A stretch of 64,000 nucleotides of DNA, taken from positions 2,418,001-2,482,000 of the forward strand of contig NZ_CP126446.1 in assembly GCF_030166655.1 (NCBI RefSeq). The letters run 5' to 3'. Below are positions 14,606 through 63,333 of this stretch, one piece after another; positions within the stretch are counted from its first letter, which is position 1; every line of letters starts with the position of its first letter. The stretch comes from Pontibacillus chungwhensis (GTDB lineage: Bacteria; Bacillota; Bacilli; Bacillales; BH030062). A program made the translations under genes and the position numbers. A model generated the notes under the pieces. It was not told the DNA's origin and made no database searches. It was given only the letters and a program-made list of their open reading frames with translations.

Positions 14606-14856
14606 ACAAAAAACACACCCATCCCTAAATAGGGACGAGTGTGTTGCTCGTGGTTCCACCCAAGTTCTCATTACATCTGTAATGACTCAAAAAACGCTGT
14701 ATCGTAGCGGCTACGGTATAGATTACATACAAGTTCACCTATACAGCTCGAAGGGGGTAAGACACTCTGCTGCGTTAGGAAGTCTCAGCACCCTTCCCTC
14801 TCTTAAAACCGTTCAGAATCCTCATGTCCTTTTCATAGCTTTTGTTATTTTTTACT
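14606..14856 (-). promoter_or_regulatory. T-box leader, distal copy (thrS)
   Basis: A second complete leader upstream of the first, with the same elements: AGAGAGGGAAGGGTGCTGAG, CTTACCCCCT (candidate ACC specifier at 14756-14758), GGGTGGAACCACGAG at 14647-14661, and a terminator hairpin ACACAC...GTGTGT followed by T-run at 14609-14645. Stem-loop sequences differ from the proximal copy while the functional motifs are kept, so both copies look maintained rather than a fresh duplication. Confidence 0.92.
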
Positions 14857-40442: not shown

Positions 40443-40471
40443 TTGACATTACACACAATAGATACTATAAT
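40443..40471 (+). promoter_or_regulatory. Consensus sigma-A promoter of the candidate ncRNA
   Basis: TTGACA (40443-40448) and TATAAT (40466-40471), both perfect, with a 17-nt spacer. It is the only promoter I saw in the window with both boxes perfect, and no protein-coding gene follows for about 430 nt. Confidence 0.88.
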
Positions 40472-40477
40472 TAATTA

Positions 40478-40788
40478 TTGTGCCTTCGATAAAAGGCAAA
40501 TAAATATCGGAAATTGAAAGAGTGATGTGTATGAGACTGGCATTCTGCTATGTTTTAATACGACTTAATCACACTGGATCAGCTTCGGAGCTGTAAGGAT
40601 GCAATAGAGGTAGGGATTGCGTCGTTTAAGTTGAAAAACTACCTTGTAGAATTTATAAACCGCGGCAGTGTTTGACGATCTAATCAAACACAGACCTTGC
40701 TAAATAAGCAAGCAAGATAAATGAGTAAAATCATTTTTTCCTAAGTACGATAACAAAGCGAGTCAGGTGACGACCTGGCTCGCTTTTC
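40478..40788 (+). ncRNA. Candidate structured non-coding RNA, unknown family
   Basis: Starts 6-7 nt after a perfect -10 and ends at a strong terminator. Predicted elements: (1) hairpin GCCTT/AAGGC (40482-40497) whose loop CGATA can pair with TATCG at 40505-40509, an H-type pseudoknot; (2) CAGCT-TCGG-AGCTG (40580-40593); (3) GATGCAAT/ATTGCGTC (40598-40623) whose loop AGGTAG can pair with CTACCT at 40639-40644, a second pseudoknot; (4) GTGTTTGA/TCAAACAC (40668-40691); (5) CTTGCT/AGCAAG (40696-40712). It does not match tmRNA, RNase P, SRP, 6S, or a riboswitch class I know. A 21-codon frame (ATG 40531) exists inside but has a weak ribosome site. Confidence 0.7.
40756..40788 (+). terminator. Terminator of the candidate ncRNA
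   Basis: AAGCGAGTCAGGT (40756-40768) and ACCTGGCTCGCTT (40773-40785) form a 13-bp stem with one G-T pair and a GACG loop, followed by TT(CC). A weaker hairpin with T-run at 40719-40739 could end a shorter form. Confidence 0.85.
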
Positions 40789-40904
40789 CAATTTCAATCT
40801 CCTTTTTTCTCTACTTTTTTCAAATCCCCCCTAGTTAATAAAGGATTTTATACGCATTCAACGAATAGGTAACAGTGCATATTCTATTGAAAGGTGTTTA
40901 GTCT

Positions 40905-41519
40905 ATGAAACCCTGGCGTAAAGAAACCTCATTATTTCTTACCTCTAATTTTATTTTATGGATTTACATAGAAGGACTTATTTTTATAACTGCTATCACA
41001 GGAAACTTTGTTAATCTTAAAGAAATAATTTTTGGGATTCTTTTAGTGAGTGCATTTACTGGACTTATTTTTGTATGGGGATTGGTTCTTCCTTTGCTAG
41101 GAATAAGGTTTATTTTAAAGAGAAAAAAGAAATTTCACCATATACGAGTAGCTGGTCATTTCATTGGTGGGTGGATCATTGTAGCCCTCCTATTCACCGG
41201 TACATTCAAAGGCTATGATATGTGGGAGCAAAGAGTCGTATTCGGTGGCGAAGATGGGAAGAAATCTCTTTTAAAACAAGGAAAATCCTATGCAGAAAAG
41301 GAGTTAAGCTCAGATTACAACCTATACGATTACAATTTTTCATCTGCAATGTTTATGCCTAAAGATGAATCTGTCATGACTGGAGATGATCATGCAACTG
41401 TGATCCTTCGTTACAAAAATAATAGATGTATTCAAGATGGCCAATCAAATTGCTACACAATAATTACTTCCAGATATCACAGCGGGAAATGGTCACCCTT
41501 CTTTATGAAAAAAAATTAG
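40905..41519 (+). CDS. Membrane protein of unknown function
   Basis: 204 residues with three hydrophobic segments in the first half (about 10-35, 40-65, 80-105) and a soluble C-terminal half containing a Cys pair (NNRCIQDGQSNCYTI) that could form a disulfide outside the cell. No family recognised. ATG with GAAAGGTG. It follows the ncRNA terminator by about 115 nt, so it should have its own promoter. Confidence 0.65.
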   Translation: MKPWRKETSLFLTSNFILWIYIEGLIFITAITGNFVNLKEIIFGILLVSAFTGLIFVWGLVLPLLGIRFILKRKKKFHHIRVAGHFIGGWIIVALLFTGTFKGYDMWEQRVVFGGEDGKKSLLKQGKSYAEKELSSDYNLYDYNFSSAMFMPKDESVMTGDDHATVILRYKNNRCIQDGQSNCYTIITSRYHSGKWSPFFMKKN

Positions 41520-63218: not shown

Positions 63219-63333
63219 CTCTTATCCAGAGTGGCGGAGGGACTAGGCCCTGTGACGCCCGGCAACCTTTCAAGAAACATCTTGAAAAAGGTGCTACTTC
63301 CTACAGATCAGATGATGATCTGGCAGATAAGAG
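63219..63333 (+). promoter_or_regulatory. SAM-I (S-box) riboswitch
   Basis: P1 arms CTCTTATC (63219-63226) and GATAAGAG (63326-63333). Between them are the conserved AGAGTGGCGGAGGGACTAGG, GCCCTGTGACGCCCGGCAACC, AAGGTGCTACTTCC and CAGATGATGATCTGGCAGAT blocks of the S-box. SAM binding should stabilise the following terminator and switch the gene off when methionine/SAM is plentiful. Confidence 0.97.

Follow-up and report, generated by a model that had tools for sequence, protein, structure and literature searches.

The closest described relative of the RNA studied here is BsrC, encoded between ydaG and ydaH of Bacillus subtilis and represented in Rfam by RF01410. It is expressed vegetatively in B. 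subtilis and, in the accessible part of one study, is bound by Hfq, with a BsrC peak at 474265-474410 that is the highest among the rows listed (PMC3574147). The available text of Rasmussen et al. (PMC2784878) joins the bsrC segment with the upstream gene. Transcripts of the BsrC-locus RNA have been published, in the sources as far as they were accessible, for B. subtilis and for P. riograndensis, in the latter on the minus strand. A second B. subtilis locus, between cspC and ydeB, appears in the available excerpts of BSGatlas (PMC8208703) as an Rfam-based annotation absent from earlier resources, and is called there a toxin-antitoxin RNA. In the partly accessible literature we found no paper on the strand or the function of BsrC-locus RNA. 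Type II hammerhead ribozymes in phage leaders were described by Perreault et al. (2011, PMC3088659), and the available portions of that paper make no mention of a common downstream RNA.

The RNA gene described here lies in a 64-kb stretch of DNA, hereafter the window, and had been picked out by a sequence-only reading as an orphan structured RNA that matched no family. Its features are as follows.

40443-40471, plus strand: sigma-A promoter TTGACA-17-TATAAT, 12 of 12 letters, with a predicted start at about 40478
40478-40789, plus strand: long-form RNA gene of about 310 nt, its ends predicted from promoter and terminator
40537-40548, plus strand: CUGGC motif and 5′ strand of the outer helix P0 (40542-40548), from alignment A1 and the P0 permutation test
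40549-40635, minus strand: match to Rfam RF01410 (BsrC), the reverse complement of the centre of the RNA, from cmscan at gathering thresholds
40563-40631, plus strand: core, from alignment A3 of 98 sequences
40563-40567/40627-40631, plus strand: core helix P1
40580-40582/40591-40593, plus strand: core helix P2
40598-40605/40616-40623, plus strand: core helix P3
within 40563-40631, plus strand: unpaired core letters of the window, CACACUGG, GGAG, AAG and the P3 loop AGAGGUAGGG
40646-40652, plus strand: 3′ strand of P0, from the permutation test
40659-40666, plus strand: ACCGCGGC motif, conserved in the long form (A1, 20 sequences: CGCGGC invariant, preceded by a nearly invariant A and C)
40755-40789, plus strand: intrinsic terminator, stem at about 40755-40786 with 11 pairs (7 G-C), a run of four T, then AATT; tail TTTTCCAATT

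The promoter that had been proposed is present with both boxes perfect; sites of at least 9/12 otherwise numbered 4 there against 3.6 in shuffles, no excess. The claim of about 300 nt free of a credible protein gene also held: the plus strand from 40478 to 40790 has no ORF of at least 40 aa, and the longest among those of at least 8 codons spans 24 codons (40522-40596). The predicted terminator exists, with 11 counted pairs before its four T; two simpler scans that demand more T miss it, its T run being short. Terminators 3′ of the RNA often end in TTTT(T)CCAAT, in the window at 40784-40793 and in homologues (17/39, against 0/103 terminators elsewhere in the same loci); the tail alone occurs in 16/98 loci and 20/884 control windows. 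Folding energy is -93 kcal/mol for the plus strand (z -5.25), and the minus strand gives z -2.94, in each case with none of 100 shuffles as good.

The description as an orphan did not survive a search of Rfam: RF01410 matches across its full model (1-87) at 69.1 bits, against a gathering cut-off of 38. The sequence-only reading had named a hit to a known family as counting against it, and such a hit was found, but on the opposite strand; the RNA is a homologue of the B. subtilis BsrC locus, read on the sense strand, of which Rfam models only the other strand. The suggestion of an undescribed ncRNA is therefore right only in part. Up to E 10, the locus otherwise gave only two Rfam matches far below cut-off (a snoRNA and a thermometer) and none to 6S RNA, RNase P, SRP, tmRNA or OLE, and ARAGORN found no tmRNA in the 64-kb window. 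Elsewhere the window holds a T-box leader (14628-14845, minus strand, 102 bits) and a SAM riboswitch (63219-63333, plus strand, 89 bits).

Several lines of evidence bear on the strand. All of 16 further loci had their Rfam match on the strand opposite to that found by our sense model. Across 98 cores and 17 pairs, 186 cells held G-U and 13 held A-C, the latter being what a wobble of the opposite strand would give. Within 330 nt upstream, 50/98 loci had a promoter scoring 10/12 or better on the sense strand and 11/98 on the antisense strand, and a terminator lay no more than 300 nt after the core at 36/98 and 3/98, respectively (five shuffles gave 0, 0, 0, 1 and 0 of 98); a stricter terminator rule gave 15 sense and 1 antisense. 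The RNA lies on the plus strand, and the Rfam model appears to be its reverse complement, because covariation, the G-U/A-C asymmetry, promoters and terminators all favour plus; on these grounds, and on the opposite matches, we rejected the Rfam strand as the real one. That the window encodes a sense-strand RNA of the BsrC family we regard as virtually certain. Of 24 single-contig genomes in one Paenibacillus-type genus, 15 carry the RNA as a minus-strand gene between 0.47 and 0.64 Mb, which in relation to the published P. riograndensis transcript is suggestive only.

The 98-sequence alignment A3 describes a three-way junction of P1 (5 pairs), P2 (4) and P3 (8), in which 14 of the 17 core pairs show two-sided changes. 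Paired cells make up 95.1% of the alignment, compared with 77.7% when shuffled and at most 46.9% when slid. The window's RNA locus scores 91.9 bits against sense model R2 (E 2.1e-29), its own sequence being among the model's 98. While the stems vary, the joining and loop letters are nearly fixed: P1 and P2 are joined by UUCACACUGG and P2 and P3 by AAG, the loop of P2 reads GGRG, and that of P3 reads AGAGGNAGGG, with one extra letter in some sequences. It is covariation, not folding energy, that carries the case, because the 87-nt core by itself does not exceed shuffles in stability (mean z of -0.48 for the sense and -0.97 for the antisense strand in 49 of the 98 cores; the sense core is lower in energy than the antisense in 48 of the 49). 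Folding energy was rejected as proof given these unremarkable z values.

Around this core, the long form to which the window RNA belongs adds CUGGC, the outer helix P0 and ACCGCGGC; a crude CGCGG test assigns it to 42 of 98 loci, with at least one false label (L064). P0 strands fit each other better within loci than between them (mean score 13.97 against 12.75, sd 0.37), and 1 of 2,000 permutations was as good in 39 of the 42 long-type loci, three without a recognisable 5′ motif having been left out and the best helix in a few loci being other than P0. ACCGCGGC resembles the 3′ half of the T-box (T-box leaders also carry ACCGCGG) and is the complement of a stretch of 16S helix 18; either likeness may be chance, and a pairing with that stretch was not retained as an explanation. 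The two H-type pseudoknots that had been proposed fared differently. The complementary segments exist in the window sequence but are not conserved and fall outside the shared fold: CGATA/TATCG becomes CGCTA/TATCG in two congeners that are 95% identical, and 2/42 long-type loci (expected 1.2) and 6/56 others (expected 1.6) had a P3-loop complement of at least 6 nt in the 76 nt that follow. We therefore rejected them as part of the shared fold. Two further candidates were discarded: a CsrA sponge, by inspection, as there is one AAGGA-type site that is lost in phage copies, and a VIPR guide RNA (PMC13142463), as by eye there is no alternating GGY/NN repeat of the kind set out in the accessible part of that report. 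A free-standing structured RNA gene, as claimed in the sequence-only reading, is strongly supported: relatives keep it, its helices P0 to P3 show compensatory changes, and one strand carries the promoters as well as the terminators.

A DNA search was positive in 20 of 61 genomes, the window's own counted. The sense models extend this to 210 of 398 Bacilli genomes and 78 of 146 genera (R1, E 0.001) or 213 genomes and 80 genera (R2, E 0.01). Of the genomes found with R2, 179 carry a single match and 34 carry two or more. With no match in the other 185 of 398, the RNA falls short of being universal in Bacilli. It is carried by 8/8 genomes of the window's own genus, 44/44 of Bacillus, 74/75 of one Paenibacillus-type and 24/26 of one Brevibacillus-type genus, and 19/19 of one further genus, the genus names being putative. 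A pattern scan of named genomes returned at least 119 stretches, and among the 80 matches listed were Bacillus-, Paenibacillus- and Brevibacillus-like names and two contigs titled Pseudomonas sp. ISL-84 (L194 and L220), which probably represent a misnamed Bacillus-like genome.

Neighbouring genes differ in most loci, with no conserved class of downstream gene of the kind expected for a riboswitch or cis-acting leader. Within 1 kb of the core on either side, a cold-shock gene was found at 22 of 98 loci, a CarD-like gene at 10 and both at 5; flanks were mostly 1.5 to 3 kb, gene order and side vary, and the counts are not independent because the loci are related by descent. No locus of the 98 had a cold-shock gene solely beyond 1 kb, and the window's own locus (L001, 1.5 kb each side) has neither gene. 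The ORF downstream of the window RNA (40905-41519) had no BLAST match among ORFs of the other loci, including the 95%-identical congener L002, and the RNA is therefore probably not its leader. At L084 (2545-2700) and L085, from Geobacillus by inferred name, the core has its own promoter and sits just before a Shine-Dalgarno (SD) sequence and ORF; pairing between AAACAAAA, which precedes the SD, and the 3′ strand of P1 could create a switch.

B. subtilis (G473, taken as strain 168 from the genes beside copy A and the matching coordinates) carries two copies of the BsrC-locus RNA. Copy A sits on the plus strand (474.27-474.65 kb) between ydaG and amj (ydaH) and has a weak sense promoter, TTGTGT-17-TATTAT (8/12), with a predicted start at 474266; another promoter-like site (9/12) inside the core region predicts a second start. 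The published Hfq peak, in the passage available, begins within 1 nt of the predicted sense start and lies 5′ of the core without covering it, with no strand given. The second copy, an R1 match at 559867-560018 on the minus strand, lies between cspC and the CarD-like ydeB, where the gap has no ORF of at least 60 aa on the RNA's strand. Tested as a type I toxin-antitoxin locus, the RNA gene in the window offers plus-strand ORFs of at most 24 codons and, among minus-strand ORFs of at least 40 aa, one 40-aa TTG ORF overlapping the core.

Relatives of the core also occur in phages. In the Brevibacillus-type genus, R2 gave a further 25 weaker matches of 27-47 bits, and of 16 such loci fetched, the 15 whose neighbours were viewed all lie among phage-like genes (by eye, with Pfam names for 2/3 protein fragments). 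With viral contigs and phage Emery added, 29 of 30 phage-type loci match at 26.7-52.6 bits, L170 being unmatched at E 0.05. Phage Emery has the element upstream of a DNA polymerase gene, between gp73 and gp74. When 22 loci were picked by the core alone, the sequence immediately upstream was a hammerhead motif in 10, a different conserved cassette in 11 and neither of these in one (L156). Of six motif-bearing loci given to Rfam, its hammerhead model accepted L151; L155 and L164 fell just below the cut-off, L152 fell short of it, and L165 and L171 were unmatched at E 0.5. Hammerhead and cassette forms have a common UACAUA-like spacer before P1, and an SD and ORF downstream; the core lies a few nt past a predicted ribozyme cut and just ahead of the SD. 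The phage alignment shows two-sided changes in 14 of 17 pairs and 95.1% paired cells, over 25 distinct rows and in an alignment fitted to the model. Because P3 loop, P2 loop and junction are held in common, the phage cores are likely to be homologous to the chromosomal core, with remote scores that leave some room for convergence. One IMG/VR contig carries a strong chromosomal-type copy (L168:6960-7046, minus strand, 97 bits) beside an apparent CarD-like gene, probably host DNA in a provirus record.

The cassette, GGGCUUCGGCCC, a variable paired stem and GGAGGUUCGAACCUCC, takes the hammerhead's position immediately 5′ of the phage core and is a candidate self-cleaving ribozyme; the members tested (8 + 4) had no Rfam match. 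Its reference copy is as follows.

L145:3054-3140, minus strand: cassette GGGCUUCGGCCC/GGAGGUUCGAACCUCC, also upstream of the core in L146-L150, L154, L157-L159, L170 and L292-L297

We propose that the window holds a free-standing, plus-strand small RNA gene whose product acts in trans and whose core is a receptor for a cellular factor. We give this whole statement, RNA identity, trans action and receptor together, a probability of about 0.6; the receptor step by itself, that the core binds a cellular factor, we hold to be an even bet. What the analysis shows of this is the strand on which the RNA lies, its fold (outer helix P0 and the P1-P3 three-way junction), its conservation, and the presence of transcription signals of its own. 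The window RNA is a long-form member of an RNA family widespread in Bacilli that includes the B. subtilis BsrC locus. Its fixed junction and loop letters would form the receptor, most likely for a protein, and the RNA may sequester or recruit the bound factor. In phages the related module would work in cis, placed at the new 5′ end that a ribozyme creates and bringing the factor to early messages. First candidates for the factor are cold-shock proteins, CarD-like proteins and Hfq, because of frequent genes nearby and published binding, the latter taken from partly accessible reports.

Among other explanations, a trans-acting antisense RNA survives best, although we think it unlikely. The G-rich P3 loop AGAGGNAGGG would, with the help of Hfq, base-pair with several mRNAs at C-rich stretches, a picture consistent with the near-invariance of the loop and with the strong enrichment of BsrC with Hfq in B. 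subtilis in the accessible data (PMC3574147). However, the junction and P2-loop letters are near-invariant too, which a seed alone would not need, and Shine-Dalgarno sites would not be partners for a G-rich loop. We favour a receptor over a plain antisense seed because the unpaired letters are near-invariant while the stems change: fixed joining letters with free stems point to the pattern of receptor RNAs, whereas an antisense seed would need the loop alone.

We give a still smaller chance to a cis-acting leader, riboswitch-like or attenuator, in which the core switches a terminator or access to a start codon. The core lies less than 200 nt before csp on the same strand in L066, L072, L080, L087, L103, L112, L114 and L115 and before carD in L118 and L119, and it also comes shortly before an ORF in L084 and L085 and before phage ORFs; yet the genes downstream have no evident function in common, the window's downstream ORF is unmatched in other loci, and a terminator follows the core within 300 nt in 36/98 loci, with the next gene convergent in others. 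The position of phage copies, a few nt after the predicted ribozyme cut and just before the SD, would also suit a protection or translation-enhancing module, with the junction shielding the 5′ end or an SD-like P3 loop offered to ribosomes and free copies acting as stable decoys. We consider this quite improbable: in many chromosomal copies the predicted 5′ end is tens of nt away from the core, and only about five pairs can form between the loop and the anti-SD. It is highly improbable that the locus acts through a small peptide of 24 codons (40522-40596, plus strand) or of 21 from the ATG at 40533; by eye, L001-L006, the window's own locus and its closest relatives, all keep the 21-codon frame open, L005 with 3 nt deleted, but ATG and frame are absent from the other A1 sequences viewed, in which the RNA fold is kept. 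Least probable of all is a functional minus strand as in Rfam BsrC, whose model does match that strand, given the 186 G-U against 13 A-C cells, the promoters and terminators on plus, and the joining by Rasmussen et al., in the available text, of the bsrC segment to an upstream gene, taken here as ydaG, on the sense strand.

A wider picture, which we put forward tentatively at somewhat less than even odds, is that one hitherto unrecognised RNA module is common to a widespread, mostly single-copy small RNA of Bacilli and to ribozyme-processed leaders of phage early genes, hidden behind a mis-stranded Rfam entry; it would be a three-way-junction receptor for a conserved host factor that phages exploit in cis, with a second, so far undescribed self-cleaving cassette replacing the hammerhead. 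The RNA occurs, mostly once per genome, in 80 of 146 sampled genera of Bacilli, B. subtilis included, and the literature as far as accessible assigns it no function. Rfam-based annotation puts the BsrC-locus RNA on the wrong strand, and the corrected strand and fold yield a model that finds it reliably. The two copies in B. subtilis make the question of function testable at once, and the phage relatives beside ribozymes offer a second route to it.

Among known systems, T-box leaders gave no match at the locus of the window RNA at E up to 10. Phage relatives of its core follow type II hammerhead ribozymes like those in the phage leaders of Perreault et al. (2011, PMC3088659), by Rfam match in L151 and by eye in other loci, whereas the motif occurs within 250 nt upstream in 0/98 chromosomal loci. 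The B. subtilis cspC-ydeB locus has the same core as the window RNA, and B. subtilis bsrC (ydaG-ydaH; RF01410) has a homologous 87-nt centre in common with it. RF01410, however, models the opposite strand and the centre only, to which the window RNA adds P0, ACCGCGGC, its own promoter and its own terminator. The BsrC locus family is already known; the correction of strand and fold, the long form and the phage relatives are new.
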